Both the position numbers and the translations under genes were made by a program. DNA of 64,000 bases from Pseudomonas fluorescens (lineage in GTDB: Bacteria; Pseudomonadota; Gammaproteobacteria; Pseudomonadales; Pseudomonadaceae), in contig NZ_CABVHK010000001.1 in NCBI RefSeq assembly GCF_902497785.1, positions 479,578 through 543,577 on the forward strand. The letters are read 5' to 3'. This document shows, piece after piece, positions 23,764 through 38,620 of this stretch. The notes under the pieces are model-generated. The model ran no database searches. It was given only the letters and a program-made list of their open reading frames with translations, and was not told the origin of the DNA. Position 1 is the first letter of the stretch; each line of letters opens with the position of its first letter.

Positions 23764-25305
23764 TCAAAAGTAAGTCGGCCACGAACGCATTTCATGGCGC
23801 CCGATGCCGTTATCGATTGCGCGCCGTTGAGCCGCCAATGCCTCGACGAGAAAACGCCGGGTTTCGCGCGGTGCGATCACCTCGTGAACGCCCATCGCAC
23901 CGGCCAGGGCAAAGGCCGAGGTGTCTTTCGAAAATTCAGCGTGCAAGCGCTCATAGCGTTCGGGGTCGGATTCGCGTGTGACGTCATGCACAACGCTGAC
24001 CGCCACGCCGGGGTCGACGAAGCTGACGTCGGCCATGCACCAGGCGGCCGACTGGTCGCTGTTGCGGCCACCGCCAAAATTCAGGTAGGCCTGTCCGAAA
24101 CTCTTGCGCACGATGACCGAGAGCTTCGGCACCGAGCACAATTGTACGGCGTGGATCATGTTCATGATGTGGGCCGGTGCAGCGCGTTTCTCGCCTTCGA
24201 TGCCCACGAGGAAGCCGGGGGTATCGACCAGAAACACCAGCGGGATGTTGAACGAATCACACATTGCGATGAAACCGCTGGCCTTGCGGCACGCATCGGC
24301 GTCCAGCGCTCCGCCCTTGAATTGCGGGTTGGAAGCGACGATGCCAATGCTCACGCCTTCAAGACGGGCGAGGGCGGTGACCACCGAGCGTCCGAAGCGG
24401 TCCTTGAGTGGGAACAGACTGTCGCGATCAACCAGCGTGGCGAGCAATTTGTGCATGTCGTAGGTTTTGCCCCGCTGCGCAGGGACAATGGTTTCAGGTC
24501 CCGACACGTCCGGGCGGTCTTCGGGTTCGCAAGGCAAAACCGGTGGCGCCTCGTTCGAGTGCGACGGCAGGTAGCTGAGAAAGCGTCGAATGGCGGCCAG
24601 CGCTTCCTGGTCATTGTTGACCACCATGTCCGCCAGCCCGGTGATTTGCGCGTGCATGCGCCAGCCACCCAGCTCTTCCGTATCGGACGTTTCGCCGATC
24701 GCCACGGCGGTGACCTTGGGGCTGGAGACGGCGAGCAATGCGCCTTTGCGCATCACCGTGAAATCCGCCAGGCAGGAATACCAGCTCGCCGAACCGAAGC
24801 AGGGCCCGAGCACGGCGCTGACCCAGGGAGTCTCGCGGCGCCGGCAATATTGCTGCGCATCCTGACCACCGCTGGCCATGCTCGCCGCGCCCATCGCGTC
24901 CTGCATGCGCTGGCCCGACGATTCGCCGAGAAAGATCAGTGGCATGCCGTTGCGGGTGGCACATTCCTTCATGTAGGCGATCTTGCGCGCGTTGATCCAC
25001 GAGGACGACGCGCCTTTGACCGTCATGTCGTTGGACACCACGGCCACCCGACGCGCGTCAATGCGGCCGAAGCCGGTGATCTTGCCGTCGGCGGGGGTGC
25101 TGTCTCGATCCTCGGGGCGGGATGAATGGGCCAGCATGCCGATTTCGCTGAAGGATTGCGGGTCGAGCAGACCTTCCAGGCGTTCGCGTGCATTGAGCAC
25201 GCCAGCGTCGCGGCGCGCCTGAAGCCTGGCTTCGCCGCCCATTTGCAAAGTGCTGGCACGGCGAGCGTGGAGTTCCTGTTCCGGTGATGGGTGTTCGCAG
25301 GTCAT
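23764..25305 (-). CDS. Acyl-CoA carboxylase, carboxyltransferase beta-type subunit (copy 1)
   Basis: 513-aa carboxyltransferase of the propionyl/methylcrotonyl-CoA carboxylase beta family. It has the two crotonase-like halves: an N-terminal domain with LNARERLEGLLDPQSF and FLGESSGQRMQDAMG, and a C-terminal domain with VDTPGFLVGIEGEKRAAPAH (oxyanion region). Such subunits move a carboxyl group from biotin to an acyl-CoA. It is the ninth gene of the operon starting at 34279 and overlaps the dehydrogenase gene by 4 bases. The substrate is not readable, and it differs clearly from copy 2 at 37040. Confidence 0.85.
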   Translation of the reverse strand: MTCEHPSPEQELHARRASTLQMGGEARLQARRDAGVLNARERLEGLLDPQSFSEIGMLAHSSRPEDRDSTPADGKITGFGRIDARRVAVVSNDMTVKGASSSWINARKIAYMKECATRNGMPLIFLGESSGQRMQDAMGAASMASGGQDAQQYCRRRETPWVSAVLGPCFGSASWYSCLADFTVMRKGALLAVSSPKVTAVAIGETSDTEELGGWRMHAQITGLADMVVNNDQEALAAIRRFLSYLPSHSNEAPPVLPCEPEDRPDVSGPETIVPAQRGKTYDMHKLLATLVDRDSLFPLKDRFGRSVVTALARLEGVSIGIVASNPQFKGGALDADACRKASGFIAMCDSFNIPLVFLVDTPGFLVGIEGEKRAAPAHIMNMIHAVQLCSVPKLSVIVRKSFGQAYLNFGGGRNSDQSAAWCMADVSFVDPGVAVSVVHDVTRESDPERYERLHAEFSKDTSAFALAGAMGVHEVIAPRETRRFLVEALAAQRRAIDNGIGRHEMRSWPTYF

Positions 25306-26366
25306 CGTGGAGTCTCATTGGGAACTATGACGGCACGTCCGACGATTTCGCCGCGACGCATTTTGTGCAGGACTTGCGGCACCTCATCCAGTGGGTGGCG
25401 TTGCAAGTGAATCGGTAGGCGACCGGTAGCGGCCAGCGCGATGAGTTCGATCAGCTCGGCCTTGCTGCCGCCGAACGTGGTACTGATCATCGCGCCATAT
25501 GGCAGTGAACCGTTGCGCAACTCGAAGGCGCCGTGTCCGCGCCCGACTACCACGATGTGCCCGAGCGGGCGAATCACCCCGGCGGCCAGGCGCAGAGTGT
25601 CGCCGCTGCCGACGAAATCCAGCACCGCGTCGACCTGGCCGATGCGCTTGAGGAATACCCCGGGGGTCAAATCGGTGGCGTCCAGCACCCGGTCTACCCC
25701 TTGGCTGACCGCCAGCCCGAGGGCCTCGACGCGGGTGTCGATGGCGATGACTTCGGCCGCTGTGATCGCGCCCAGCGCGGCGATTGCGATATGCCCCAGT
25801 CCGCCGACACCGATGACCAATACGCGACTGCCGGGTGAAAGCAGGTGAGCGACGCGCTTGACAGCGTGATAGGCGCTGAGCCCAGCGTCGGTCAACGGTG
25901 CGGCCCTCCAGGGTTCGAGCGTGCCGATGTCCACCAGACAGTCCTGGTGGATCACCACGTATTCGGCGAGCCCGCCGTCATAGCCGCCGCCGTAGATGCG
26001 CCGCGAAGTGGAGCAATAGTTATTCCAGCCGGCGATGCACGCTCGGCAATGACCGCAACCGGGAATGCTCACGGCGCAGGCCTGCCCGACTGTCCAGCCA
26101 TCGACACCCGGTCCGAGTGCGTCGATCCAGCCGGCGATCTCATGGCCGAGGGTCATCGGCAGTTGCACATCGAGGTGCGGGGGCGAGCAGCACAGATCGT
26201 CCAGCGCATGCAGGTCCGACTGACACAGGCCATTGCCGCCGACCCGCAGGCGTACTTCACCGTGGCCTGGAACCGGCACAGGCACTTTGCATAGACGCCC
26301 GCCGTCCTGCCAGTCGAACATGCGAAAGGCCCGCATGGTGCGGATGGGGGTGGGTTGCGTATTCAT
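25302..26366 (-). CDS. Zinc-dependent alcohol dehydrogenase (MDR family)
   Basis: 354-aa medium-chain dehydrogenase. The catalytic zinc site is in NGLCQSDLHALDD and GHEIAGWIDALGPGVDG, the structural zinc lobe is CGHCRACIAGWNNYC, and the NAD fold is VLVIGVGGLGHIAIAALG. It would oxidise an alcohol or reduce an aldehyde. The ATG at 26366 is taken as start. A TTG at 26372 would give the 4-base overlap typical of this operon. It sits between a thiolase-fold protein and a carboxyltransferase and may process a cleavage product. Confidence 0.87.
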   Translation of the reverse strand: MNTQPTPIRTMRAFRMFDWQDGGRLCKVPVPVPGHGEVRLRVGGNGLCQSDLHALDDLCCSPPHLDVQLPMTLGHEIAGWIDALGPGVDGWTVGQACAVSIPGCGHCRACIAGWNNYCSTSRRIYGGGYDGGLAEYVVIHQDCLVDIGTLEPWRAAPLTDAGLSAYHAVKRVAHLLSPGSRVLVIGVGGLGHIAIAALGAITAAEVIAIDTRVEALGLAVSQGVDRVLDATDLTPGVFLKRIGQVDAVLDFVGSGDTLRLAAGVIRPLGHIVVVGRGHGAFELRNGSLPYGAMISTTFGGSKAELIELIALAATGRLPIHLQRHPLDEVPQVLHKMRRGEIVGRAVIVPNETPR

Positions 26367-26368
26367 CG

Positions 26369-27547
26369 TCAATCACCGTTTGCCAACACCAGGGTCATAA
26401 ATGCCGACATCAGCAGCCCGCTGGCCTGGACCAGACAACTGCTGGCATTGGCTACCTGACGCTCGGCGCACTCTCCACGTAGCTGACGCACCGACTCGAT
26501 CATCAGTTGCATGCCGAACTGGCCGGAGTGATTGAAGGCCAACCCACCGCCCGAAGTGTTCACCGGCAATGCGCCGCCGGGGGCTGCACGGCCGCTGCGC
26601 AGGAACGCCCCGGCCTGACCGGGTTCGCACAAGCCCATGGCTTCGAGCGCCACCAGCACGTTGATGGTGAAGGCGTCGTAAATCTGCACCATGCTCAAGT
26701 CCTCGCGCTCGATGCCGGACATCTGTAGCGCTCGCTCGGCGCAGCCGCCGATCACGCCAGGGTCGAGCCAGTCGGTGGAGCCGAGCGGTGTGACGTGATG
26801 CAGGTAGGTGTCGGCGAATCCGCGAATGAATACCGGCGGTTTCGCCAAGGTGCGTGCGCGGTCGGCTTTGGTGAGAATCAACGCACCGGCACCGTCGCTG
26901 ACCAGGCAGATGTCAGCCTTGCGCAACGGATCCGAGATCAGCGGCGACGCCAGGTACTCCTCCATCGTCAGCGGCTTGCGTAACGTCGCGTGTGGATTCA
27001 ACTGCGCCCAGCGTCGTGCGTTGATCGCTACTTCGCCGAGGTCTGCTTCGCTGGCCTGATAGCGATGCAGATACTGCTGCGCGAGCATCGCGTACCAACT
27101 GATCGGGCTAAGTACGCCGTAGGGCGCCACAAATTGCCCCGACGGCGAGCGCGGGTCGGTGATCACGCCGCCCCGGCTGCGACTGTGATCCAGGCGCTGG
27201 GTACTGCCATACGTCACCAGCGCCACTGAGCACAAACCTGCCTCAATGGCAGCCATGGCGTGAATCAGATGAGTAAGCGGCGAGCCCCCGCCCACCACCG
27301 TGCTGTCGACATACCGCGGCGTGATGCCCAAATACTCGCTCACCAGCAGCGCGTTGGCGCGGTCGTCCCAATGGGCGAACACGCCGTCGACATCGGCACG
27401 CGTCAGCTCGGCATCGAGCAAGGCATCGCGGGCGGACCGGCATTGCAGCGAAAGCGCGGTGTCCCCCGGCTGCGCCTTGCCAAGACCGGCCTCGCCGACA
27501 CCGACGATGGCGTAACGGCCGGGCAGAAGGGACGTGTCGAGCGTCAT
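26369..27547 (-). CDS. Thiolase-fold lipid-transfer protein, Ltp2 aldolase-like
   Basis: 392-aa member of the SCP-x/Ltp thiolase-like group. The usual thiolase nucleophile region reads DSTVVGGGSPLTHLIHAMAA and contains no Cys. The C-terminal half shows IYDAFTINVLVALEAMGLCE and NTSGGGLAFNHSG in place of the NEAF and GHP motifs of true thiolases. The same substitutions occur in steroid side-chain aldolases of the Ltp2 type, which need a DUF35 partner, and such a partner gene is present at 29082. Retro-aldol C-C cleavage of a CoA ester is therefore proposed. A non-catalytic or acyltransfer role cannot be excluded. Confidence 0.78.
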   Translation of the reverse strand: MTLDTSLLPGRYAIVGVGEAGLGKAQPGDTALSLQCRSARDALLDAELTRADVDGVFAHWDDRANALLVSEYLGITPRYVDSTVVGGGSPLTHLIHAMAAIEAGLCSVALVTYGSTQRLDHSRSRGGVITDPRSPSGQFVAPYGVLSPISWYAMLAQQYLHRYQASEADLGEVAINARRWAQLNPHATLRKPLTMEEYLASPLISDPLRKADICLVSDGAGALILTKADRARTLAKPPVFIRGFADTYLHHVTPLGSTDWLDPGVIGGCAERALQMSGIEREDLSMVQIYDAFTINVLVALEAMGLCEPGQAGAFLRSGRAAPGGALPVNTSGGGLAFNHSGQFGMQLMIESVRQLRGECAERQVANASSCLVQASGLLMSAFMTLVLANGD

Positions 27548-29073
27548 GGTTGCGGCTCCTGCTCGACAAGTTGCGCCCGCACGTCTTTCTTCAACACCTT
27601 GCCCACCGGACTGCGCGGCAGGCTCTCCCAGAACAGCACCTGCTTGGGTGTTTTCAGGCTGCCGAGTTTTTCCCGGCAGACCGCGATGAACTCTTCGGCC
27701 GTCGCGCTGACGCCCGCCTTGAGTTCGATGACGGCGATGACTTTCTCACCCCAGTCCGGATCGGGTATTCCAACCACGGCGCAATCCATCACCATCGGAT
27801 GCGCCCAGATCACCTGTTCGATCTCGCTCGGGTAGATGTTGAATCCTCCGGAGATGATCATGTCCTTGGTGCGATCGACGATGTACAGATAACCACTTTC
27901 ATCGAACACGCCGATGTCGCCGGTGTGGTGCCAGCCGAATCGTCGCGACTCAGCGTTGGCTTGCGGGTTATCGTAGTAACCCGGGGCGACCAGTTCACCA
28001 CGGGCGACGATTTCGCCACGCTCTCCGGACTCGACAAACCGTCCTTCCTCATCCATCAGCGCCACTTCGCAAGCGCCGGTCGGACGGCCGGCGGAACCCA
28101 GGTGTTTGCCGTCACGCATATGATCTTCGCGGGTCAGTATCGTGATGACGCCTGGCACCTCGGATTGGCCGTAGGCCTGAACGAACACCGGTCCCCACAA
28201 CGCGATGCCTTCGCGCAGTTTGTCCACGGACATCGGCGCCGCGCCGTAGATCACGTATTCCAGTGAGGAGCAGTCGCGGGTTTTGGCCGCCGGGTGCGAC
28301 AGCAGACGGTAGATCAGCGTCGGCGGCAGGAACAGGTGCGTGATGCGTTCGCGCTCGATGGTTTCGAGCACGGCACCCGGGTCGGCGGACGGCGCGATAA
28401 CGTTACGCGTACCAAAACTCGAAAGCGCCATGGCTGTCGCACCGGCGGCATGGGTCAGCGGTGCCACGACCAAATGCGCAGGGCTTTTCGCTGGCGGCAT
28501 GAACTGGTTGCTGATGCGGTAGCAGGCCAGCAGGGCGCGATGGCTTTGCATGATCGCTTTCGGCCGACCGGTCGTGCCACCCGATGACTTGATCAGCGCG
28601 GTGTCGTCGAGGGACTGGCGCACGGTGCAGCGCTGGCCGGCATGTTCGCGGCACCACTGGGCGATGCTCTGCCCGTCGACGGGTTCGTCCAGGCCGATCA
28701 CGGTTTTGAGGGTCGGCACGCCGGCGCGAATGCGCTCGGCGTGTTCAGCGTATTGGGAGTGCAGCACCAGCACGGACAGCTGGGTGAAGCGCATGAACCA
28801 GATCAGGCTGTCGATCGAATCACGGGCATTGAGCGGAACGAAGGTTGCACCTGCGCGCAAGGCGCCGAGCATGGCGACGAAGCTCAATGGATGGTTGGGC
28901 GCCAGCACACCGACATGGGGGGAGCTTAGTCTCAGCAGCGCCAAGGCATGGCCGATGGCATGGGTATCGGCCTGAACCTGGGCGTAGGTGAGGCTGAAAC
29001 CGGTGCCTTGCAGGCAGATGTTATCCGGGTGGCGATCGGCGCCGGCATCGAAGTGGTCGGTAATCATTTCCAT
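27544..29073 (-). CDS. Acyl-CoA synthetase (AMP-forming), copy 1
   Basis: 509-aa ANL-family ligase that would activate a carboxylic acid to its CoA thioester. The phosphate loop SSGGTTGRPKA is near residue 165, the mid motif YGQSEVPG, the hinge VDRTKDMIISGGFNIYPSEI and the catalytic Lys in PRSPVGKVLKKDV. The start at 29073 (MEMITDHFD) removes an arginine-rich lead overlapping the DUF35 gene. It overlaps the thiolase-like gene by 4 bases. The substrate is unknown, and a second ligase of the same family is encoded at 35484 under the same operator type. Confidence 0.87.
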   Translation of the reverse strand: MEMITDHFDAGADRHPDNICLQGTGFSLTYAQVQADTHAIGHALALLRLSSPHVGVLAPNHPLSFVAMLGALRAGATFVPLNARDSIDSLIWFMRFTQLSVLVLHSQYAEHAERIRAGVPTLKTVIGLDEPVDGQSIAQWCREHAGQRCTVRQSLDDTALIKSSGGTTGRPKAIMQSHRALLACYRISNQFMPPAKSPAHLVVAPLTHAAGATAMALSSFGTRNVIAPSADPGAVLETIERERITHLFLPPTLIYRLLSHPAAKTRDCSSLEYVIYGAAPMSVDKLREGIALWGPVFVQAYGQSEVPGVITILTREDHMRDGKHLGSAGRPTGACEVALMDEEGRFVESGERGEIVARGELVAPGYYDNPQANAESRRFGWHHTGDIGVFDESGYLYIVDRTKDMIISGGFNIYPSEIEQVIWAHPMVMDCAVVGIPDPDWGEKVIAVIELKAGVSATAEEFIAVCREKLGSLKTPKQVLFWESLPRSPVGKVLKKDVRAQLVEQEPQP

Positions 29074-29081
29074 GGTGGCGG

Positions 29082-29498
29082 CTAATCCAAAAGAATGAAC
29101 TGGGGCAGCGTGCAGGACTCGCTGACGGACTCGAAACAAACGCCGACGCGGGCGCCGATGGCGATGCGATCCAGGTCGCAATCGAGGAGGTTGGCCAGCG
29201 TGCGCACCCCTTCATCGAGGTCGATCAGCGCAACGACATAGGGCAACCGCGCTTCGAACGCCGGCGAGGGCGCAATCCGGCAGACCGTGTAGCTGTAGAC
29301 GCGCCCATGACCGCTGGCATTGATCCACTCGAGGCCGTCGCACAGGCACTCCAGACAGAACGCTCGCGGGTAGAACTGGCAGTGGCCGCAGCCGGTGCAA
29401 CGCTGGATCACCAGCCGTTGTTCCTGGGCGGCCGCCCAATAGGCGGCCGTTTCGGTGGTGGGTTGCGGCAAGGGCCGTGCAGGAAGAGGAGTCGACAT
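29082..29498 (-). CDS. Zn-ribbon OB-fold protein, DUF35 (ChsH2-like)
   Basis: 138-aa DUF35 protein with an N-terminal rubredoxin-like zinc ribbon (CTGCGHCQFYPRAFCLEC, four Cys in two CxxC pairs) and a C-terminal OB fold (GRVYSYTVCRIAPSPAFEA, LPYVVALIDLDEGVR). Proteins of this family bind acyl-CoA and form complexes with thiolase-fold enzymes, including Ltp2-type aldolases. Its partner here is likely the gene at 26369. The ATG at 29498 has GGAAGAGG upstream. It ends 8 bases before the ligase start. Confidence 0.88.
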   Translation of the reverse strand: MSTPLPARPLPQPTTETAAYWAAAQEQRLVIQRCTGCGHCQFYPRAFCLECLCDGLEWINASGHGRVYSYTVCRIAPSPAFEARLPYVVALIDLDEGVRTLANLLDCDLDRIAIGARVGVCFESVSESCTLPQFILLD

Positions 29499-29505
29499 GG
29501 CAGCC

Positions 29506-31005
29506 TCAATGAGTACGCAATTCGAAACCGGCCATGGCGATGTGCACATGACGCTGTTCAGGAAGCCTGGCCAGACCGGCGATCAGTTCGTGCAGTGGAC
29601 GACGCACGCTGAAGGTGTCATCGATCACGGTCGGTACGAGCCCGGTGATTTTTTCGTCGCCGTACATGGCGCGCAGCAGCAGTTCGTCATCCGACAGACC
29701 GGGGTAGCGACGACGCAGCTCCGGAACCCGTGGCGACAGCACTGGCGGCGTTTCAGCGACTTCGCGGGAGCCGTTGGCCAGTACGCGATACTTGACTTCA
29801 GGATCGACCGGCAGCGGCAGCGCACCGAAATAGCCGCAGACATACTTTTTCACTTCGTCCGGCACCACTTTATAACGCTCGCCGCTCAGCACATTCATCA
29901 CTGCCTGCGCGGCGATCATGGCGGGGAAGGGCGTGGCCATGACCGGTGAGCCCAGTTCCACGCGGACGCGGCCGATCTCCTCGAGCACCACCGGCAGCTT
30001 GTCGGCGATGCCGGCGAGTTGCAGTTGCGATTGCAGATTGGACATGGCACCGCCGGCATATTGAGTGACGAAGTGCGCCGGGTCGTATTCCGCCGGGACA
30101 CCCACGGGGAAGCCGTTCTCTTCGGCGATCCCGGCGAGATAGTCGCCGACCTCGTCCGCCGCACGGTCATCGAAACTGACCTCGAAGCCGATTTCGCGCA
30201 GATTGCGCGCCAGCATCTGTGCCGAGGGCCCGGCATTGCCGTTGGCCAGCGGATCGACCGAACACAGCAAACGGTCGGCGCCGTGCACAGCGGCTTCGAT
30301 GGCCACCAGCGAACCGGTAGCATTCAAGCAATGGGTCAGCACTTCCAGCGGTCGGTCGCCGATCACGGCTTTGATCGCCGGCACAATGCTGCGTACCTGC
30401 TCCACGGTCAGGCTGCCGCCGGCGTCGCCGAAGGTAAAGGCGTCGATGTCGAAGCGCTCGATGGCCTCACGCGCCTTGGCGGCGTAGAACGGCGCGTCGT
30501 AGCCTGGCGCCAGGTTGTAAATCATCGCAAGGTTGGTGGTCGCGCCGAGTCGCTTGGCGGTGGTGATCGATGGCACCAGGTTATCCCAGCAGTGCAGGGA
30601 GTCGAGAAAACCGATGTCACGCGCACCGTTGGCGATCAGGCGTTCGACGTACAGCTCGCTCAAATCGTCCGGCTCCGGGTAGAAGCTGCGCAGCATATTG
30701 CTGCGCACAATTGCGCGCAGCGGCGTGTGGCGGATGCGCTCGGACAACAGGCGCAAGCGCTCCAGCGGGCTCTGATTGAGGAACAGCACGCTGGCGTCGA
30801 ACTGCACCAGGGCAATGGCTTCAATCGCATCAAATCCCAGGGCATCCAGGCGCTCGGCCATCGGCAACATGTGCTCGGTGCGCATGCGCGTGGCCCACAG
30901 GCATTGGTGCGCGTCGCGCAGGGTAGCGTCGACCAGCTGGATACGCCGGCGTTTGCCGGTGCGGGCGAATTCTGCATTGACGGTTTCGCGTAGTTGATTC
31001 AGCAC
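29506..31005 (-). CDS. HMGL-like carboxyltransferase homologue A (altered active site)
   Basis: 499-aa TIM-barrel protein related to oxaloacetate decarboxylase alpha, pyruvate carboxylase CT and transcarboxylase 5S. The family start is clear (VDATLRDAHQCLWATRMR, about 25-42), as is the C-terminal conserved domain (GGAMSNLQSQL, EEIGRVRVELGSPVMATPFP). By eye alignment, the carbamylated Lys of the IKDMSG motif is replaced by Gly (TFGDAGG, 191-197), and the metal HxH motif reads HCL (225-227). It starts with GTG at 31005, with AAGGGG upstream, and follows homologue B after 3 bases. Both may form one complex, and the reaction is open. Confidence 0.8.
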   Translation of the reverse strand: MLNQLRETVNAEFARTGKRRRIQLVDATLRDAHQCLWATRMRTEHMLPMAERLDALGFDAIEAIALVQFDASVLFLNQSPLERLRLLSERIRHTPLRAIVRSNMLRSFYPEPDDLSELYVERLIANGARDIGFLDSLHCWDNLVPSITTAKRLGATTNLAMIYNLAPGYDAPFYAAKAREAIERFDIDAFTFGDAGGSLTVEQVRSIVPAIKAVIGDRPLEVLTHCLNATGSLVAIEAAVHGADRLLCSVDPLANGNAGPSAQMLARNLREIGFEVSFDDRAADEVGDYLAGIAEENGFPVGVPAEYDPAHFVTQYAGGAMSNLQSQLQLAGIADKLPVVLEEIGRVRVELGSPVMATPFPAMIAAQAVMNVLSGERYKVVPDEVKKYVCGYFGALPLPVDPEVKYRVLANGSREVAETPPVLSPRVPELRRRYPGLSDDELLLRAMYGDEKITGLVPTVIDDTFSVRRPLHELIAGLARLPEQRHVHIAMAGFELRTH

Positions 31006-31008: not shown

Positions 31009-32406
31009 TCACCCCTTGCTGTGTTCGAGATGGATGGACAGGCCTGGGCCTGTGACACTCAATACGCTGTAGTCGGGCCAGCGTTGCAGCAGCCCGTGGG
31101 TCAAGGCTTGCTCGGGTGTGCGTAATTCGTAGTGAAGTTTTTGCATAGGCTGCAGCGCACGGCAGCCGCACACCAGCGCCGCCAGTGCTTCTTCAGAAGA
31201 AGGCAAGTTGGCTGGACGGTCAGGGTGGGCGACAGCGCCGATACGTTGTTGCACGCTCAGCAGCGACGTGTTGATCGGGCCGTAGCAACCCTGCAGCCAG
31301 CGGCGCAGTGCTGGCTGCAACGTGGTGAAGCGTGGGCTGGAATCGAGATGTTCCAGCGCCTGCCGTGCGATGGCGTGTGCGAACGGTTGCAGCATCGGCG
31401 GATTGCCGAGCTCCTGGCGAATGCGCGTGCACTCTCGGGAAAACTCGAAAAGATCAGTCAGACGTCCGCGCTCGCGCAAGGTTTGCAACGCTTGGGCGGC
31501 GATTTCCCCCGGCAACTGATGTTCGTAGGGAGAGAGATCAAACGCCCATGGCTGGCTTTCGGCAAAGCCTTCCTGATCCGCCACGGCCGCGAGCTGAGTC
31601 TGGGCTTCTGTGATACGGTTCTGATCCGGTGCTTGCAGCGGCAGCTCGAGCAGCGCCGCCGACCGGATCAACAGTGCCAGCGAAGGCGCCGATGCGCCGT
31701 TGGCGACCGCGGGTAACGCAGCATCGAGACGGTCGATCCCGAGTCGAATCGCTTCCAGCGCCACTTGCGGGCCGAGTCCGGTGTGGCAGCGCGTGTGCAG
31801 GTCCAGCGGTTTGCCATCCACGCCACTGCGCAGGGCCGCGAGCAGGCCAGGCAGGCGATCGCAATGCAGCAGGCCCGCTTCGTCTCGCAGCATGATGCGC
31901 TGCGCACCGGTCAGCACCAGGCGTGCGGCACAGGCTGAATAGTACGCATCGCAATGCTCGGGATCGTCCACATAGGGCAGGGCGGCGATGGCGATCAGGC
32001 CGTGGTCCCGGGCCTTTTGCACCGCGTTAGCCAAGCGCGAAAAGTCCAGCAGCGGATCAATCAATACGACTTCGCTGATACCGGACTTCGCCAGCAAACG
32101 CAGCCAGGTGTCCAGCGCTTCACCGCCGAGCACATCCAGTTGGCCGTGGGCGGGCAGCAGGTTGACGGTGGCGCGCAACGGTGTGCCATTGGCGCGCTGA
32201 TGCAACGCGGCGACGCGTTGCAGCGGGTTTTCGTTGCGGCTGATGCATTGCGCGATCACCGCCGGGCTCAACACCTCAATGGCGCCGAGTCGAGCGTGCC
32301 CGAGCGAGTTCATCGTGGCGAGCAGCATCGCGCTGCTCGCGGCGCCTCCCCAGGCAGCGGTCTGACCGTCGCTCAGGCTGACATCGACCAGGGTTGTCAT
32401 GCTCAT
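31009..32406 (-). CDS. HMGL-like carboxyltransferase homologue B (degenerate)
   Basis: 465-aa protein of the same TIM-barrel family as homologue A but more divergent. The first motif is DVSLSDGQTAAWGG instead of D-T-T-L-R-D. The Lys motif reads MLRDEAGLL with Arg174 in place of Lys, and the HxH metal motif reads HTR (204-206). The C-terminal conserved region (FEFSRECTRIRQELGNPPML) is still recognisable. It overlaps the biotin carboxylase gene by 4 bases. It may be a structural partner of homologue A, or have changed chemistry. The family call is good, the function unknown. Confidence 0.72.
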   Translation of the reverse strand: MSMTTLVDVSLSDGQTAAWGGAASSAMLLATMNSLGHARLGAIEVLSPAVIAQCISRNENPLQRVAALHQRANGTPLRATVNLLPAHGQLDVLGGEALDTWLRLLAKSGISEVVLIDPLLDFSRLANAVQKARDHGLIAIAALPYVDDPEHCDAYYSACAARLVLTGAQRIMLRDEAGLLHCDRLPGLLAALRSGVDGKPLDLHTRCHTGLGPQVALEAIRLGIDRLDAALPAVANGASAPSLALLIRSAALLELPLQAPDQNRITEAQTQLAAVADQEGFAESQPWAFDLSPYEHQLPGEIAAQALQTLRERGRLTDLFEFSRECTRIRQELGNPPMLQPFAHAIARQALEHLDSSPRFTTLQPALRRWLQGCYGPINTSLLSVQQRIGAVAHPDRPANLPSSEEALAALVCGCRALQPMQKLHYELRTPEQALTHGLLQRWPDYSVLSVTGPGLSIHLEHSKG

Positions 32407-33812
32407 GAGCGCTCCTTGGCTTGTTTCAACGCCTGTTTGCGGGCAGGTACGAAGACGTCTTCAACCCAGCGTGTGGTGACGAGGCCGGCGACGAAGTCCG
32501 GGTGGTCGAGCACGGCGTGATGGAAGCTGGCGGTGGTCGACAGGCCCACGACTTTCATGTCTTCCAGCGCCTTGCGCATCAGCACGATGGCTTCGCTGCG
32601 AGTCGGCGCATGCACGATCAGTTTCGCCAGCAGGGAGTCATAAAACGGTGGCACGGTGGCGCCGCTGTAGCAGTGGGTATCGACCCGCACGCCTTTGCCT
32701 TTGGGCGGTTGCCACTCGCTGACCTGGCCCGGGCTAGGCAGGAAGTTGCGGTCCGGGTCTTCGGCGTTGATCCGGCACTCGATGGCATGGCCGGTCAGGT
32801 GCACGTCAGCCTGGGTGAACGACAGTGGCAGGCCGGCAGCGATGCGGATCTGCTCGGCGACCAGGTCGAAACCGGTGATCATCTCCGTCACCGGGTGTTC
32901 GACCTGGATGCGGGTGTTCATTTCCAGAAAATAGAATGTGCCGTCGCGGTCATCGACCACGAATTCGATCGTGCCCGCACCGAAATAGCCGACATTTTTG
33001 GCCAGACGTACGGCGCACTCACCCATGTGCTCGCGGGTTTGCGGCGCCAGGCTGGGAGACGGAGCTTCTTCGATCAGTTTCTGGTGACGGCGCTGCGTCG
33101 AGCACTCACGTTCGCCAAGGTGCACCACGTTGCCATGGCGGTCGCCCATGATCTGGATTTCGATATGGCGCGCCAGTTCGATGAATTTCTCGACGTACAG
33201 AGTCGGATCGCCAAAGGCTGCTTGTGCTTCCGAGGAGGCTGAACGGAAAGCGGCTTCGGCTTCTTCGTCGTTGCGCACGATGCGCATGCCGCGTCCGCCG
33301 CCACCGGCCGTTGCCTTGAAGAGCACGGGATAGCCAATACCGCTGGCGATGCGGCGGGCCGTCTCGGCATCGGCCACGGCATCGGAACCCGGCACACGCG
33401 GCACTTCGGCCTTTTCGGCCAGACCGACGGCAGTGATTTTGTCGCCCATCGAATCGATGATTTCGGCCGATGGACCGATGAACACCAGCCCGGCGTCTTC
33501 GCAGGCCTGGGCGAAATGCGAGCGCTCGGACAGGAAGCCATACCCCGGATGGATCGCATCGCAACGGTGTTCCAGCGCGGTGCGCACCAGCAGTTCCGCG
33601 CACAGGTAACTTTGCGCCGCGGGCGCCGGGCCAATGATCACGTACTGGTCGGCGAGGCGGGCGGCCAGGCTGTCCACGTCGGCTTCGGAAACGGCTGCGA
33701 CCGATTCGATGCCCAGGGTTTTGCAGGCACGCACAATGCGTACAGCGATCTCGCCACGGTTGGCGATCAACACCCGGCGAATGTCGCGGGTTGCCACGGG
33801 AATGCTGCTCAT
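32403..33812 (-). CDS. Biotin carboxylase subunit
   Basis: 469-aa AccC-type enzyme that carboxylates carrier-bound biotin with ATP and bicarbonate. The biotin carboxylase N-domain starts RRVLIANRGEIAVRIVRA, the ATP-grasp domain has KATAGGGGRGMRIV and FLEMNTRIQVEHPVTE, and the C-domain has GHAIECRINAEDPDRNFLPS. The start overlaps the carrier gene stop by one base (TGATG). It is a second copy beyond the housekeeping accBC that every pseudomonad needs and serves the local carboxyltransferases. Confidence 0.93.
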   Translation of the reverse strand: MSSIPVATRDIRRVLIANRGEIAVRIVRACKTLGIESVAAVSEADVDSLAARLADQYVIIGPAPAAQSYLCAELLVRTALEHRCDAIHPGYGFLSERSHFAQACEDAGLVFIGPSAEIIDSMGDKITAVGLAEKAEVPRVPGSDAVADAETARRIASGIGYPVLFKATAGGGGRGMRIVRNDEEAEAAFRSASSEAQAAFGDPTLYVEKFIELARHIEIQIMGDRHGNVVHLGERECSTQRRHQKLIEEAPSPSLAPQTREHMGECAVRLAKNVGYFGAGTIEFVVDDRDGTFYFLEMNTRIQVEHPVTEMITGFDLVAEQIRIAAGLPLSFTQADVHLTGHAIECRINAEDPDRNFLPSPGQVSEWQPPKGKGVRVDTHCYSGATVPPFYDSLLAKLIVHAPTRSEAIVLMRKALEDMKVVGLSTTASFHHAVLDHPDFVAGLVTTRWVEDVFVPARKQALKQAKERS

Positions 33813-34279
33813 CAGCGAGTCTCCGGTTCGATAATCATCAATAACTGGTCCCGCTGAACCATTTGCAGGTCCTGGGCGACGATGCGCACCACACGTCCGT
33901 TCACCGGGGAGGCGAGGGTGTTGAACAGCTTCATGGCCTCAACCAGGCACAGGGGGGCGCCGGCCTCTACGGTGGCGTTTTCTTCAACAAATGACGGTTG
34001 GTCGGGGCTGGGTTTTCGATAGAAGGTGCCCATCATGGTGGCGCGCACCGCGACCTGACCGGCGGTCACTTCAGGTTCGCTCAGGGCTGCCAGGGCGGGC
34101 GCCGGCTGCGCCATTTTTGTCGGCGTTGTGCCTTGCACCGGTTCCAGCGAACGCTGCACCGTGCCGGACTTGCTGGCCGTCAGCGTGGTGTCGCCGACGC
34201 GGACTTCCAGGAAGTCCAGATGCCGGGTGTGGTCCAGTATTTCCAGGATTCTTCGTGCTTCTTTATGTGTGAGCGACAT
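33812..34279 (-). CDS. Biotin carboxyl carrier protein (AccB-like), catabolic
   Basis: 155-aa carrier. The N-terminal part is helical (KEARRILEILDHTRHLDFLE), followed by a Pro/Ala linker and a biotinyl domain with the target Lys in VEAMKLFN (near residue 116). MGTFYRKPSPDQPSFVE is the AccB-type beginning of this domain. It is the first gene of the nine- or ten-gene minus-strand operon, directly downstream of a palindromic operator at 34338-34356. Confidence 0.92.
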   Translation of the reverse strand: MSLTHKEARRILEILDHTRHLDFLEVRVGDTTLTASKSGTVQRSLEPVQGTTPTKMAQPAPALAALSEPEVTAGQVAVRATMMGTFYRKPSPDQPSFVEENATVEAGAPLCLVEAMKLFNTLASPVNGRVVRIVAQDLQMVQRDQLLMIIEPETR

Positions 34280-34337
34280 GCCTCAGGGCCTCTTGTTGTT
34301 CGAATTGCCTTGACCGATAAAAACATCCAAACGTAGG

Positions 34338-34356
34338 ATTGTCAACAATCAGACAA
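34338..34356. promoter_or_regulatory. GntR-type operator, copy 1
   Basis: ATTGTCAACAATCAGACAA, containing the inverted repeat ATTGT-CA-ACAAT. Seventeen of 19 bases recur at 35457-35475. TTGT-N2-ACAA palindromes are common operators of FCD-type GntR regulators, one of which is encoded at 34708. This copy lies in the 198-base divergent region and could control both the minus operon and the biotinyl-gntR pair. Confidence 0.78.
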
Positions 34357-34477
34357 TGAAGTAATGTGCTGACCATCACCCGGGACGTTTGCGCAGTACT
34401 TGATAGCAAAAGCGTAGCGTGCGGCAGCCGCAAGCCCGGCGATTTCAGAAAACAGTGGTGTTTTGGAGGGGGCGAGA

Positions 34478-34702
34478 ATGAGTACAATCGCGGTTAAATC
34501 GGATGTTGCTGGGACGGTGTGGCAGATCCATGTCCGCGAAGGTGATGTTGTTGAAGAAGATCAGACACTGGTCATTATGGAGTCCATGAAAATGGAAATC
34601 CCCTTGATGGCCGCGGAGTCGGGTCGAGTGATCAGCGTTCTCGTGGCCGAGGGCGAAGTGGTAAAAGATGGCCAGGATGTTTTGCTTATGGAGTGCGATT
34701 GA
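34478..34702 (+). CDS. Free biotinyl/lipoyl domain protein, 74 aa
   Basis: A single biotin attachment domain with the ESMKMEIPL motif (target Lys near residue 35) flanked by the hairpins VREGDVVEEDQTLVIM and VAEGEVVKDGQDVLLM. It resembles the small 1.3S-like carriers of transcarboxylases and decarboxylases rather than AccB. The ATG at 34478 follows TGGAGGGGG. It is the first gene of the plus arm and ends 5 bases before gntR. With the AccB-like protein at 33812 the locus has two different biotin carriers. Confidence 0.92.
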   Translation: MSTIAVKSDVAGTVWQIHVREGDVVEEDQTLVIMESMKMEIPLMAAESGRVISVLVAEGEVVKDGQDVLLMECD

Positions 34703-34707
34703 AGTCT

Positions 34708-35418
34708 ATGTCAATGAATGCAGGCTCGGCGTCGGCCGCCAAGGGCGGTAGTGCAATAGGTATCATGCGGGCTGGTCGCCAGCGCGTGTTGACGATGCCG
34801 GAGCAGATTGCCGAAAGCATCACGCTGGCGATTTTGCGCGGTGAATACGGGCCGGGCGATTCGGTGCGTGAGCAGGAGCTGGCCGACCACTTCCAGGTCA
34901 GTCGTGGTCCGATCCGCGAAGCCCTGCGCATTCTCGAGAAGGTCGGTGTGGTGACGATCGTGCCGCAGCGTGGCGCGCATGTGACTTCATTGAGCCGCCA
35001 GGAGATCGACAACCTGTTCGAGATCCGTGCCGTGCTGGCCGGGTTGTTGGCCAAATACCTGGTGGATCTTGACGGGTCTGTGGTGAATCAGATGGACGCC
35101 ATCGTCACCCGGCTGGAGCTGATCGCTGCGCAATCGGATGCACTGGATGAATACGCGCAGGGCAGTTATCGCCTGAGCACGCTGTTGTTCCAGGCCTGCG
35201 GCAACAAGCAGTTGGCGGAGCTGATGGGCGCGTTGGGTATCCAGACCGCACGCTACACCCGCCTGGGTTTGCGTTCGCCGGAACGCCGGGAGGCTTCCGT
35301 CATTCATTGGCGTCAGCTGGTCGAGGCACTCAGACAAAACAGCAGCACGGTTGCCGCAAAAACGATGGTTGAGCTGATCAACGCTTCCCATCAAGCCGCA
35401 TCGAATCAGTTGGAATAA
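34708..35418 (+). CDS. GntR-family regulator (FCD domain)
   Basis: 236-aa GntR regulator. The winged HTH spans about 30-90 (SITLAILRGEYGPGDSVREQ, then RGPIREALRILEKVGVVTIV) and the C-terminal FCD ligand domain is helical (NLFEIRAVLAGLLAKYL). The ATG at 34708 is preferred; a GTG at 34693 overlapping the biotinyl stop is possible. Two 19-bp palindromic operators (34338 and 35457) lie on either side of its gene, so it probably controls both arms of the cluster in response to a pathway intermediate, most often as a repressor in this family. Confidence 0.88.
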   Translation: MSMNAGSASAAKGGSAIGIMRAGRQRVLTMPEQIAESITLAILRGEYGPGDSVREQELADHFQVSRGPIREALRILEKVGVVTIVPQRGAHVTSLSRQEIDNLFEIRAVLAGLLAKYLVDLDGSVVNQMDAIVTRLELIAAQSDALDEYAQGSYRLSTLLFQACGNKQLAELMGALGIQTARYTRLGLRSPERREASVIHWRQLVEALRQNSSTVAAKTMVELINASHQAASNQLE

Positions 35419-35456
35419 ACCACACGGGGGCACAACACTCCCAAGTGCTGTGTCAA

Positions 35457-35475
35457 ATTGTCGACAATAAGACAA
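35457..35475. promoter_or_regulatory. GntR-type operator, copy 2
   Basis: ATTGTCGACAATAAGACAA, with the perfect 12-base palindrome ATTGTCGACAAT, 8 bases before the ATG of the second ligase. It is nearly the same as the site at 34338. The position close to the start codon suits repression. Confidence 0.78.
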
Positions 35476-35483
35476 AAAATATC

Positions 35484-37043
35484 ATGACAAAGAAACGTAC
35501 CGCAGGATTAATGCTGAGTTGGGCCGCCCGGCAGCACCGTGGCCGCACCGCCCTGATTTTCGGGGACGACTGCCTGACCTATGACGAGGTGGAAACTGGC
35601 AGCAATCGCCTGGCCCATGCCCTGATTTCCCTGGGATTGCAGGTCGGTGAGCGTGTGGCTGTGCTACTCAATAATTCACCCGAGGCGATCGAGAGTGTGT
35701 TTGCAGTCGAAAAGGCAGGCCTGGTCTACGTCGCGCTGAATGCCCGGCACACGCTGGCCGAACAGGTCGCGATCCTCAACGACGCCGGCGCAAGCGTGCT
35801 GGTGGCTGGGCCGGAATTCCGCGAGATCGGAGCAGGTGCGCGCGACGCAGTGGCCAGTTTGCGACACGTGATCGGGCTTGATTGGCAGGCGCCGCAGGTG
35901 CTGGATTACCGCCAGGTACTCGCTGCCATGCCGGCCCATGCGCCGAATGTTCAGGTGTCTGCGGACACGCAGTTGCGTATCGCCTATACCTCGGGGACGA
36001 CCGGCAAGCCCAAGGGAGTGACCTATACCGTCAAGCGTTGGTACGAGCGCCTGACCAATCACTTCTATGCCATGGAATACGGCCTGGGCGTAGACGATGC
36101 GATGTTGCACGTCGGCCCCTTGACTCATGCTGCCGGCGTTCATCTGCTGCCGTGCTACTTGCGAGGCGCGCGCAACGTGATTCTGGAGAAGTTCGAGCCG
36201 CTGGAAACGCTGCAGAAAATCGAGCGCCATCGCATTACGCAAATGATGTGCGTGCCGACCATGCTCACGCGCCTGCTCGACACGCTCGACAGCGGCGCCA
36301 ACGCTGATCTGTCCTCGCTCAAGTGCATTCATTACGGCACGGCTCCGACCTCCGTCGACCTGATCCGCCGGGCGATTGCGCGGTTCGGTCCGGTGATGCG
36401 TCAGCAATATGGAATGACCGAGGCGGTCCAGCCGCTGGCAGTGCTGTATCCACACGAACACGCTGAAGACGGCGTGCTGCGCTCCTGCGGCAAACCGACC
36501 GCGAACGTGCAGATCACCGTGCGCGATGTTCACGGTCAAGAACTGGCGGCGGGTGAAATCGGCGAGATCGCCATCGCCACCGACGGTATCGGCGAAGTGG
36601 CGTTCTGGCGCCGCCCCGATCTGGAAGCCGAGGCTATCCGCGATGGCTGGTACTACACCGGCGACCTCGGTTACCTCGATGCGCAGGGCTTCCTTTTTAT
36701 CGTCGGACGTAACAAGGACATGATCATTTCCGGTGGCTTCAACGTCTACGCCCGGGAAGTCGAAGATGCCCTGGAAAGCCATCCGCAGGTCGTCGAAGTG
36801 GCGGTACTGGGGCTGCCCGATGCGGAGTGGGGCGAGCGGATCGCCGCTTTCGTCGTCCGGCGCGAAGGCGCCACGGTCGACAGCGAGTCCCTTGGCAGTC
36901 ATTGCGTTGCACTGATCGCTGGATACAAAAAGCCGCGCCTGATCGAGTTCGTTGACGCTCTGCCGCGCAACAATGCCGGCAAGGTCGTGAAAAACATACT
37001 GCGCGATGACTATCTCGCGCGCCTGGAGAGGACATCATCATGA
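35484..37043 (+). CDS. Acyl-CoA synthetase (AMP-forming), copy 2
   Basis: 519-aa ANL ligase. Motifs are AYTSGTTGKPKG (phosphate loop, near 170), QQYGMTEAVQPL, YYTGDLGYLDAQG, VGRNKDMIISGGFNVYAREV and the catalytic Lys near the C-terminus (PRNNAGKVVKNIL). It differs in sequence from copy 1 at 27544, so two related acids or two stages of one pathway may be activated. The start at 35484 lies just behind the operator. The next gene overlaps by 4 bases (ATGA). Confidence 0.87.
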   Translation: MTKKRTAGLMLSWAARQHRGRTALIFGDDCLTYDEVETGSNRLAHALISLGLQVGERVAVLLNNSPEAIESVFAVEKAGLVYVALNARHTLAEQVAILNDAGASVLVAGPEFREIGAGARDAVASLRHVIGLDWQAPQVLDYRQVLAAMPAHAPNVQVSADTQLRIAYTSGTTGKPKGVTYTVKRWYERLTNHFYAMEYGLGVDDAMLHVGPLTHAAGVHLLPCYLRGARNVILEKFEPLETLQKIERHRITQMMCVPTMLTRLLDTLDSGANADLSSLKCIHYGTAPTSVDLIRRAIARFGPVMRQQYGMTEAVQPLAVLYPHEHAEDGVLRSCGKPTANVQITVRDVHGQELAAGEIGEIAIATDGIGEVAFWRRPDLEAEAIRDGWYYTGDLGYLDAQGFLFIVGRNKDMIISGGFNVYAREVEDALESHPQVVEVAVLGLPDAEWGERIAAFVVRREGATVDSESLGSHCVALIAGYKKPRLIEFVDALPRNNAGKVVKNILRDDYLARLERTSS

Positions 37044-38620
37044 GCACGCCTGTTGCCCCTGAATGGTCGCTGGAGCTCGCCGACATCCGCGCGCGCCGGG
37101 AAGTCGCCTATGCATTGGGCGGCCCGGAAGCGGTAGAAAAGCATCATGCCCAGGGCAAGCTCACGGCCCGCGAGCGCATCGGCCACCTGCTGGACGATGA
37201 AAGCTTCGAGGAATTCGGCATATTGGCCGGTGCCGTGAAGTACACGGCGGAAGGCAAGATTGCCTCCGCCACGCCGAGCACGGCAGTGGTCGGCGTGGGC
37301 ACGATCGCGCAGCGCCGCACGGTGGTGGCGGCGGATGATTTCACCATTCGCGGTGGTTCGTCGGAGGCGGCGGTCGCTGAAAAGTGGATCTACGCCGACC
37401 GTTATGCCTGGGAATACAAGCTGCCGATCATTCGCATGATCGACAGCGCCGGCGGCAGTGTGAAGTTGCTCGACAAGCTCGGTCATACCAAGATTCCGGG
37501 TTATGCCCTGTTGCCGATCACTCATCTCCTGGGTGCCGTGCCGGTGGTCGGCATTGCCCACGGTGCCTGTGCCGGACTGGGCGCGTTGCGGGTGGCCGCT
37601 TCACACCTGTCGATCATGGTGCGTGGCCAGAGCCAGGTGTTCGCGGCGGGTCCGCCTGTTGTGAAGCAGGCGTTCGGGATCGACATCGACAAGAACGACC
37701 TCGGCGGTTACGACCAGGTGCATCGTCACAGCGGCATGATCAACCTGGCGGCCAATACCGATGCCGAGGCCTTGGAGCTGGCCAAGCGATTCCTGTCCTA
37801 TCTGCCGGTCAACGTCTGGGAGCAGCCACCGCGTGTGGCAACCACGGACGCCCCCGGTCGCCGTGACGCGTGGCTCAACGACGCGATTCCCCATGACCGG
37901 CGCAAGATTTTCAATCCGCACAAGATCCTTAAATCGCTGGTCGACAAAGACAGCCTGTTCGAGATGTCCCCGGACTTCGGCGCCTCCACCATCACCGCGT
38001 TTGCCCGTCTCAACGGCTACTCGGTGGGGATCATCTGCAACAACCCGCGCGTCGGCGGCGGTGCGTTGACGCGTGCGGCGGCGCTCAAGCAGACCCGTTT
38101 CATCGACCTGTGCGACACCTTTCATTTGCCGCTCATTTATCTGGTCGATCAGCCGGGTGTGATGACCGGGCAAGAGGCGGAAATGCAGGGCACCTTGAGT
38201 GCAGCGATGCAGGCCGTGCATGCAATCGAACAAGCCAGCGTGCCTGTGATCACGATCGTCTTGCGCCGTTGTGTCGGACTCGCCGGCGCGATGGTCAGCC
38301 CGTGGCACGGTCCGACGGGCACGGCATTGCCGCACCGGTTTGCCTGGCCTTCGGCGCAGTGGGGTTCGATCCCGATCGAGGGCGGCGTCGCGGCCGCCTA
38401 CAAGCAGGAAATCGCTGCGGCCGATGATCCGCTGGCACGTCGCAAAGAGCTGGAGGCCCATTACCAGGCCCTGGCTTCACCCCTGCGTACCGCCGAACGC
38501 TTTGGCGTAATCGACATCATTGAGCCGGACAGTACGCGTCCATTGCTGTGCAACTGGGTGGGGGATGCCTATCGCATCACCGCACTTTCCCTTGGGCCGA
38601 AGCGGCGGACCATGCGCTAG
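37040..38620 (+). CDS. Acyl-CoA carboxylase, carboxyltransferase beta-type subunit (copy 2)
   Basis: 526-aa carboxyltransferase of the PCC/MCC beta type. N-domain motifs are KLTARERIGHLLDDESFEEF and MIDSAGGSVKLLDKLG; C-domain motifs are LIYLVDQPGVMTGQEAEMQG and RRCVGLAGAMVSPWHGPTGT. It is coupled to the ligase by an ATGA overlap. Compared with copy 1 the active-site loops differ (DQPGVMTGQ against DTPGFLVGI), so different acyl-CoA substrates or a hetero-complex are possible. Confidence 0.85.
   Translation: MSTPVAPEWSLELADIRARREVAYALGGPEAVEKHHAQGKLTARERIGHLLDDESFEEFGILAGAVKYTAEGKIASATPSTAVVGVGTIAQRRTVVAADDFTIRGGSSEAAVAEKWIYADRYAWEYKLPIIRMIDSAGGSVKLLDKLGHTKIPGYALLPITHLLGAVPVVGIAHGACAGLGALRVAASHLSIMVRGQSQVFAAGPPVVKQAFGIDIDKNDLGGYDQVHRHSGMINLAANTDAEALELAKRFLSYLPVNVWEQPPRVATTDAPGRRDAWLNDAIPHDRRKIFNPHKILKSLVDKDSLFEMSPDFGASTITAFARLNGYSVGIICNNPRVGGGALTRAAALKQTRFIDLCDTFHLPLIYLVDQPGVMTGQEAEMQGTLSAAMQAVHAIEQASVPVITIVLRRCVGLAGAMVSPWHGPTGTALPHRFAWPSAQWGSIPIEGGVAAAYKQEIAAADDPLARRKELEAHYQALASPLRTAERFGVIDIIEPDSTRPLLCNWVGDAYRITALSLGPKRRTMR

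Follow-up and report, generated by a model that had tools for sequence, protein, structure and literature searches.

A conserved Pseudomonas island with two biotin-dependent carboxylase modules, an Ltp2-like aldolase pair and carboxyltransferase homologues that have lost the metal site

Carboxyltransferases (CTs) of the pyruvate-carboxylase fold hold their metal with an Asp, a carbamylated Lys and two His. The CTs of the Hpe and Xcc ketone carboxylases are presumably of the HMGL type, a view that we take from operons of like make-up and not from their own sequences. In XccBCA the three parts are a biotin carboxyl carrier protein (BCCP), a biotin carboxylase (BC) and a CT (PMC8461187), while another account, which disagrees with the former on the Hpe and Apk subunits, gives HpeB as the CT and HpeA as the BC (PMC9618137). 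Among the thiolase-fold steroid side-chain aldolases, the catalytic motif reads YDHF in Ltp2 and YDCY in Sal (PMC12329534). In Castellaniella, monoterpenes are handled by transport genes of the DUF1302/DUF1329/YCF48-type/RND kind (PMC6394551), and Tween 20 use in P. putida involves DUF1302/DUF1329 genes (PMC10866462). Relatives of these parts meet in an island of about 25 kb (23006-48040) in Pseudomonas fluorescens, within a stretch of 64,000 nucleotides of contig NZ_CABVHK010000001.1 (assembly GCF_902497785.1; positions 479,578 to 543,577), hereafter the window. We tentatively favor the explanation that this is a GntR-controlled island for the uptake and breakdown of a hydrophobic acid, in which two joined carboxylase modules draw on one BC. 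Each module has relatives; their combination in one island appears to be new.

The island comprises two divergent arms, one on each strand, that run outward from a common promoter region (Table 1), and it exceeds the extent (23764-38620) given in an earlier, sequence-only reading of this DNA. From 23006 to 40966, adjacent genes of an arm share 1-4 nt or leave a gap of 2-65 nt, and 180 nt lie between the YeiH-family gene and the DUF1302 gene. That reading had described a coupled, divergently transcribed catabolic regulon of unusual composition, with two ligases, two CT-beta subunits, two HMGL-type homologues (here OAD7 and HMGL8) and two biotin carriers. All of these parts are present, together with one BC, and the coupling is borne out by the short gene spacing, by a palindrome shared between the arms and by recurrence: the same gene order, which it had proposed to seek in other genomes, is found for both arms in ten of ten named Pseudomonas loci. 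No described pathway with this gene set turned up in the literature that we searched (mostly open papers, by their titles and the openings of their abstracts), in line with the earlier claim.

The distribution of the island is patchy. A search of the genus with HMGL8 gave orthologues in 5 of 298 genomes, the window's own included (E <= 1e-45), and the window's own genome was the sole match both among 293 genomes of the order (E <= 1e-60) and among 369 of the class (E <= 1e-45). A scan of a named genome collection gave 11 HMGL8 loci, ten of them in Pseudomonas (81-89% identity) and a distant one (28%) in Acidimicrobiaceae. Within its own genome HMGL8 has no close paralogue, its other two matches being OAD7 and a PycB-like protein. 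All ten named Pseudomonas loci keep the operon order BCCP1-BC-HMGL8-OAD7, a BC that is 94-97% conserved, BCCP2, the MFS transporter and the YeiH-family gene, and the Flavodoxin_2 oxidoreductase was found in nine. The alcohol dehydrogenase (ADH), which the sequence-only reading had counted in the set, is present in the window but optional: two of the ten loci (L012, L015) have a complete gene, L016 has a remnant and none was detected in the other seven, for which reason we rejected it as a core step. The DUF1302 gene adjoins the unit in all ten loci, where it is cut by the locus end, and DUF1302, DUF1329, YCF48 and MMPL genes come next in each of the four genomes examined further out. Of the window proteins encoded outside the unit, 22 served as queries against the flanks of these four genomes, and no match exceeded 35% identity. 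The shared content up to the MMPL gene and the unmatched flanks thus delimit the unit at 23006-48040. Such a patchy distribution amid changing neighborhoods is as expected for a catabolic island. Median ratios of nonsynonymous to synonymous substitution (dN/dS; 55 pairs each) are 0.046 for BC, 0.066 for OAD7 and 0.168 for HMGL8, and no internal stop occurs in any of 11 sequences of OAD7 or HMGL8; both genes are not decaying and are under purifying selection, as is BC. The recurrence in all ten loci and the low dN/dS argue that the arrangement is not due to chance.

Both HMGL-type subunits have lost the metal site. The metal-ligand positions of 5S and OadA were matched to the alignments by residue number. 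In OAD7 the metal-site Lys is replaced by Gly193 and one metal His is lost, with Asp31 kept; in HMGL8 the Lys is replaced by Arg174 and the second metal His by Arg206, with Asp13 kept. The Lys and one His are missing from all 11 sequences of each protein. His225 of OAD7 aligns with the first metal His in the pairwise HMMER alignment and with the second in a MAFFT alignment of closer relatives, so that one His is lost either way. Among 35 comparison sequences, a count that leaves out eight further Pseudomonas orthologue rows of OAD7/HMGL8, 31 retain the Lys and 34 the His pair; for the 18 that are not canonical PycB/OadA, the figures are 14 and 17. Where the Lys is changed it has become Glu (L026, L033), Ser (L034) or Tyr (L032), and by these alignments it is not strictly kept in related operons either. 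OAD7 retains the metal Asp with the Arg and Gln next to it, and most of the motifs around them. HMGL8 has also lost the Arg that precedes the metal Asp and the conserved residues that follow PGG, and its dN/dS is about 3.7 times that of BC. The partner carrier BCCP1 keeps its biotinyl Lys.

Both proteins score as PycB/OadA, with no lyase model among their matches. In a tree computed without ten canonical or near-duplicate rows (L050, L051, L055, L056, L058-L061, L064, L065), OAD7 groups with the CTs of Caballeronia, G155, Arthrobacter and Cnuibacter (support 97/98), a group with an intact site; since this sister clade keeps the site, the loss probably took place on the OAD7 branch. HMGL8 stands alone on a branch of length 2.64, for which the tool gives long-branch and composition warnings. 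That HMGL8 arose by a recent tandem duplication of OAD7 is not supported, given this long branch of its own, though long-branch effects are possible. The claim of two HMGL-type CTs is sound as a statement of homology, but as enzymes both are in doubt, HMGL8 the more so. Our searches of the literature gave no description of such a conserved metal-site loss affecting the two HMGL-type subunits. As a separate observation made by eye, the last 30-35 residues of OAD7 (29506-29600) and of HMGL8 (31009-31110) resemble the N-terminal segment of BCCP1.

The Ltp2-like aldolase pair of the sequence-only reading holds up in its main features. In the thiolase-fold protein THL, Gly-Gly-Gly-Ser (VVGGGSPL) stands in place of the thiolase nucleophilic Cys and is accompanied by a YDAF motif, both in 11 of 11 sequences, and the neighboring DUF35 protein has a C4 zinc ribbon (Cx2Cx10Cx2C) with the spacing of ChsH2. 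The pair thus has the replaced Cys, the Tyr of the YDxx motif and the zinc-ribbon partner of Ltp2 and Sal. Thiolases of related operons (Rhodococcus L026 and L033; Novosphingobium L032) keep the Cys; a THL-like protein of Diaphorobacter is without it. We rejected a true thiolase for the DUF35-THL pair because the Cys is missing. The best prediction from these motifs is that THL-DUF35 would carry out retro-aldol cleavage of a beta-hydroxyacyl-CoA.

A palindrome may also tie the two arms together. The motif ATTGTNNACAAT has two matches in the 64-kb window against 0.07 expected, and at least two matches occurred in 0 of 100 shuffles. The copy in the divergent promoter region, ATTGTCAACAAT, is invariant in an 11-row alignment of this intergenic region, and the motif is present there in 14 of 14 orthologous loci (10 distinct named genomes, four of them represented twice). 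The second copy, ATTGTCGACAAT, sits between the regulator gene and the ligase gene ACS2; it is exact to the motif in six of the ten named genomes, and the remaining four have the first copy only. FCD-type GntR proteins often bind TTGTnnACAA-like sites. The GntR protein of the island may bind the palindrome, and both arms probably form one GntR regulon.

The island reads as a module A (BCCP1-BC-OAD7/HMGL8) fused to a module B (BCCP2-CT1/CT2 and the aldolase), with one BC for both; as the two modules are found singly elsewhere, we read it as their merger. The possibility that the parts belong to separate operons, which the sequence-only reading had raised against itself, is thus half right: in the plasmid clusters examined from other bacteria they occur as two separate modules, but the ten Pseudomonas loci have them together. 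For module A, a protein search of 72,556 plasmid records gave relatives of OAD7 in 32 records, none above 60% identity, and HMGL8 gave matches of 22-29% in 27 records of the same set. An OAD7-like CT occurs together with a BCCP and a BC in all ten annotated clusters of this type examined (L023, L024, L026-L031, L033, L034) and, by tblastn, in the unannotated L032 and L035. Among the more distant relatives, L026, L029 and L033 also encode CoA ligases, PEP-type kinases and a phosphatase or HAD-family hydrolase; in L027 the extra genes are those of an acetoacetate-CoA ligase and a HAD-type hydrolase. This make-up matches the Hpe/Acv phosphophenylethanone route (PMC9618137, PMC13101465). The BCCP-BC-CT order of the plasmid relatives L026, L027, L029, L031 and L033, taken with the reported sizes of HpeB (49.3 kDa) and HpeA (57.4 kDa), fits the subunit assignment of PMC8461187. 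The clusters of the OAD7 sister group encode a BCCP and a BC, with CoA-transferase and thiolase genes in two of the four. The island encodes BCCP, BC and an HMGL-type CT together, as a ketone carboxylase of the Xcc/Hpe/Acv type requires, but has neither the intact CT metal site nor, among the genes scanned in 23006-48040, the two-component PEP-type kinase and the phosphatase. In one sister-group unit, L067 (G155; 6628-15866), the genes of an OAD7-like CT (44%), a BCCP and a BC are divergent to those of a CoA-transferase, a thiolase, an alpha/beta-hydrolase fused to a carboxymuconolactone decarboxylase, and an intradiol dioxygenase of the protocatechuate 3,4-dioxygenase type, with a TRAP transporter gene nearby. 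This is an uncharacterized ketone-carboxylase-like unit tied to the protocatechuate pathway.

Relatives of module B lie in Burkholderiales. The best plasmid matches of CT2 are from Variovorax (65% to Variovorax PBL-E5), and CT1 shares 54-55% with CT1-like proteins of Variovorax and Cupriavidus modules, which hold CT2-like and CT1-like proteins, a BCCP of the 74-aa type, a BC and CoA transferases together; the Cupriavidus modules also have MaoC-type genes. Carriers of the BCCP2 type are annotated as biotin carriers in Burkholderiales, and the best PDB sequence match of CT2 is 1on3, a 12S subunit. Diaphorobacter has a CT2-like CT, a BC and a BCCP2 beside a DUF35 protein and the THL-like protein (41% to THL), in a stretch that also has MaoC and a 3-oxoacid CoA-transferase; tblastn over 17.5 kb found no HMGL-type protein there. 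Plasmid 3 of Variovorax sp. PBL-E5 (L025, 8569-23867) carries, amid tripartite tricarboxylate receptors, an uncharacterized double carboxylase module: two CT1/CT2 pairs with a single BC, two CoA transferases and two small BCCPs.

On the transport side, DUF1302, DUF1329, YCF48 and MMPL family genes stand side by side in the island, as in known uptake/efflux sets for hydrophobic substrates; the substrate proposed here is a hydrophobic carboxylic acid. For the branched or isoprenoid-like acids suggested by the sequence-only reading, what support we can add comes from the DUF1302/DUF1329/YCF48/RND precedents, which make such a substrate conceivable. A sulfonate, hinted at by the YeiH-family gene, was considered and not adopted; this gene falls below the TIGR00698 cut-off.

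What we observe is a set of genes and its conservation, one palindrome at two sites, a metal site that is lost, an active site of aldolase-like make-up and the occurrence of each module on its own elsewhere. These observations are compatible with a route in which we infer every reaction. The acid would be moved by the DUF1302/DUF1329/YCF48/MMPL proteins and the MFS transporter and converted by ACS2 to its CoA ester, which module B (CT1/CT2 with BCCP2 and BC) would carboxylate. Dehydrogenation and hydration by enzymes encoded elsewhere might then supply a beta-hydroxyacyl-CoA that the THL-DUF35 complex would split by a retro-aldol reaction, giving an acyl-CoA and a carbonyl compound. The latter may be carboxylated or otherwise processed by a complex of BCCP1, BC, OAD7 and HMGL8, of presumed ketone-carboxylase-type descent, and the second ligase, ACS1, would add CoA to the resulting beta-keto acid for thiolysis. 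Within module A, OAD7 would be the likelier active subunit and HMGL8 a non-catalytic partner, and any carboxyl transfer would have to proceed without the usual lysine-carbamate metal site. This route accounts for the two ligases, the two carriers and the two kinds of carboxyltransferase. In a bolder and more doubtful form, OAD7-HMGL8 would be a heteromeric biotin-dependent carboxyltransferase of the pyruvate-carboxylase fold that is free of the metal-carbamate center and carboxylates the ketone set free by the Ltp2-like aldolase, which would be a new means of bypassing a beta-branch in hydrophobic acids.

Several points weigh against this route. Its weakest link is the ketone-carboxylase step of module A, because the metal site is lost in both OAD7 and HMGL8, and since the AlphaFold models are poor (mean pLDDT 45 for OAD7 and 53 for HMGL8) this loss is itself read from the alignments. 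The genes scanned in the island include no hydratase, acyl-CoA dehydrogenase or true thiolase, and as no kinase or phosphatase was found either, the island does not encode the Hpe pathway itself. The third residue of the THL motif is Ala and not the His or Cys of Ltp2 and Sal, and the best NCBIfam match of THL is the acetyl-CoA acetyltransferase model PRK06158, at 392.8 bits, below the cut-off of 421. Finally, the Diaphorobacter stretch examined has no CT1-like protein near the aldolase.

The foremost rival, possible although we lean against it, is that only module B is catalytic and that OAD7 and HMGL8 are retired CTs kept as scaffold or regulatory subunits holding BC and BCCP1, so that acyl-CoA carboxylation would lead to retro-aldol cleavage. 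The broken site in both proteins, the further losses and the higher dN/dS of HMGL8, and the occurrence of the aldolase type in Diaphorobacter beside CT2, BC and BCCP2 with no HMGL-type protein in the 17.5 kb searched speak for it; a retired role sits poorly with OAD7, which is nearly as constrained as BC and keeps its Asp, Arg, Gln and most motifs, and with the intact biotinyl Lys of BCCP1. Rather unlikely, in our estimate, is a heteromeric CT formed by OAD7 and HMGL8 with a rebuilt or missing metal site and a new ketone or keto-acid substrate. The altered residues are invariant in 11 of 11 sequences and the operon order is kept in all ten loci, which would agree with this, as would the Glu at the Lys position in L026 and L033, within complete kinase-phosphatase operons, which suggests that the Lys may be replaceable in the wider family; Gly and Arg, however, offer no obvious replacement ligand.

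Two further readings seem very improbable. The apparent transcarboxylation set of the sequence-only reading would use no ATP and would carboxylate a keto acid at the expense of a malonyl-type CoA ester, in the manner of a 12S/5S/1.3S enzyme. Homologues of all three subunit types are indeed present, and a 12S structure is the best PDB match of CT2, but both 5S-like proteins have lost the Lys and one metal His, and a BC above the accC cut-off and 94-97% conserved lies in the same operon; we accordingly disfavor it and take the 12S, 5S and 1.3S likeness as one of parts only. Of similarly slight probability is a phosphorylated aryl-ketone pathway of the Hpe/Acv/Xcc type acting on a lignin-type acetophenone: such operons encode relatives of OAD7, BC and BCCP1, and a CoA ligase is at hand, yet the PEP-type kinase and phosphatase were not among the genes scanned in 23006-48040, and THL is without the Cys that the thiolases of L026, L033 and L032 keep. 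The MCC/GCC (Liu/Atu) pathway has a BC-BCCP fusion, one CT-beta and, in the cluster, a hydratase and an HMG-CoA lyase. In the island BC and the BCCPs are separate, no hydratase is among the scanned genes and no lyase model was matched.

If OAD7-HMGL8 should be active, then metal-carbamate chemistry, thought central to CTs of the pyruvate-carboxylase type, would be dispensable; if inactive, the pair would be a clear case of a catalytic family kept as a scaffold. In both cases the island predicts a catabolic route, as yet undescribed, by which common soil Pseudomonas would use a hydrophobic acid. It also has a candidate operator, a boundary that is defined, and naturally occurring variants that either have or lack the dehydrogenase.

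Table 1. Features of the island in window coordinates; the starts of the two AMP-forming ligase genes are our choice.
Feature	Position	Strand	Basis
Flavodoxin_2 family NAD(P)H oxidoreductase, last gene of minus arm	23006-23710	-	PF02525
CT1, 12S/PccB-type (MmdA/PccB) carboxyltransferase	23764-25305	-	PF01039
Zn-dependent alcohol dehydrogenase (ADH), accessory	25302-26366	-	PF08240
THL, Ltp2/Sal-like thiolase-fold protein, predicted retro-aldolase	26369-27547	-	no nucleophilic Cys (VVGGGSPL), YDAF motif
ACS1, AMP-forming acyl-CoA ligase	27544-29073	-	PF00501, PF13193
DUF35/ChsH2-like OB-fold protein, Cx2Cx10Cx2C zinc ribbon	29082-29498	-	PF01796, PF12172; zinc ribbon read in sequence
OAD7, PycB/5S-like carboxyltransferase homologue	29506-31005	-	profile matches, alignments, tree
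HMGL8, divergent PycB/OadA-like subunit, probably non-catalytic	31009-32406	-	profile matches, alignments
BC, biotin carboxylase, AccC type	32403-33812	-	TIGR00514 and NF006367 above cut-off
BCCP1, biotin carboxyl carrier protein, EAMKLFN	33812-34279	-	PF00364; TIGR00531 below cut-off
Palindrome ATTGTCAACAAT, divergent promoter region, putative GntR operator	34338-34349		motif count, alignment
BCCP2, 74-aa biotin carrier, ESMKMEI	34478-34702	+	motif read in ORF
GntR/FCD-family regulator	34708-35418	+	PF00392, PF07729
Second palindrome ATTGTCGACAAT, before ACS2, putative operator	35457-35468		motif count
ACS2, AMP-forming acyl-CoA ligase	35484-37043	+	PF00501
CT2, 12S/PccB-type carboxyltransferase	37040-38620	+	PF01039
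MFS transporter	38682-39956	+	PF07690
YeiH-family membrane protein	39959-40966	+	PF03601; below TIGR00698 cut-off
DUF1302 outer-membrane protein, start uncertain (perhaps 41147)	41072-42973	+	PF06980
DUF1329 LolA-like periplasmic protein, ORF as listed, start uncertain	42861-44369	+	PF07044
YCF48/BNR-repeat protein, ORF as listed, start uncertain	44242-45501	+	PF14870
MMPL/RND-family transporter	45473-48040	+	PF03176

Around the island, genes for tRNA-Cys and tRNA-Leu lie directly at its edge (22544-22897); ARAGORN found no tRNA in 14 island loci of other genomes or in eight further flanking stretches of four genomes. A ring-hydroxylating oxygenase (alpha subunit, a small subunit assigned by position only, and reductase) and an SDR are encoded at 10244-14072. 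The dioxygenase (10244-13132) was considered as part of the unit and rejected, its three genes not being found in flanks of about 10-14 kb in four genomes; the SDR beside it has a 29% match in the L044 flank. At the far end of the window (62001-64000) the G+C content falls to 0.46, against about 0.60 over most of its length.

Compared with known systems, the island has homologues of each subunit of the Propionibacterium methylmalonyl-CoA transcarboxylase (12S, 5S, 1.3S), but the 5S metal site, intact in that enzyme, is lost in the island homologues. The Propionibacterium enzyme is also not known to include a BC, whereas the island has one. With the steroid side-chain aldolases Ltp2-ChsH2 and Sal-Shy, THL shares a thiolase fold without the nucleophilic Cys (Gly in Sal), the catalytic Tyr of the YDxx motif and a DUF35 partner with a C4 zinc ribbon (PMC12329534); unlike them, the island DUF35 protein has no fused hydratase domain, and the third motif residue of THL is Ala. 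AmeABCD of Castellaniella and PP_0765/0766/2018/2019 of P. putida present the same set of DUF1302, DUF1329, YCF48-type (AmeC, COG4447) and RND/MMPL proteins (PMC6394551, PMC10866462), which in the island is linked to a double carboxylase operon. The uncharacterized Burkholderiales modules (Variovorax PBL-E5, Cupriavidus) share with the island CT1-like (54-55%) and CT2-like (46-65%) proteins, BCCP (39-48%), BC (44-46%), CoA activation and a regulator; they differ in having a CaiB-type CoA transferase and tripartite tricarboxylate receptors where the island has AMP ligases and DUF1302/MMPL, in the MaoC of Cupriavidus, and in that no HMGL-type proteins were found in the stretches examined. The (phospho)phenylethanone carboxylases HpeCBA, Acv and XccBCA resemble the island in being three-part biotin ketone enzymes with CoA ligation downstream, and plasmid operons of their kind (R. 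leguminosarum pRlBT01c, L029; P. putida YC-AE1, L027; Rhodococcus, L026 and L033) encode CTs with 33-37% identity to OAD7, the likeness being drawn from operon make-up and relatives. From these the island differs in that no kinase or phosphatase was found among its scanned genes, in having two HMGL-type subunits and not one, in the loss of the metal site, and in being joined to an acyl-CoA carboxylase module.

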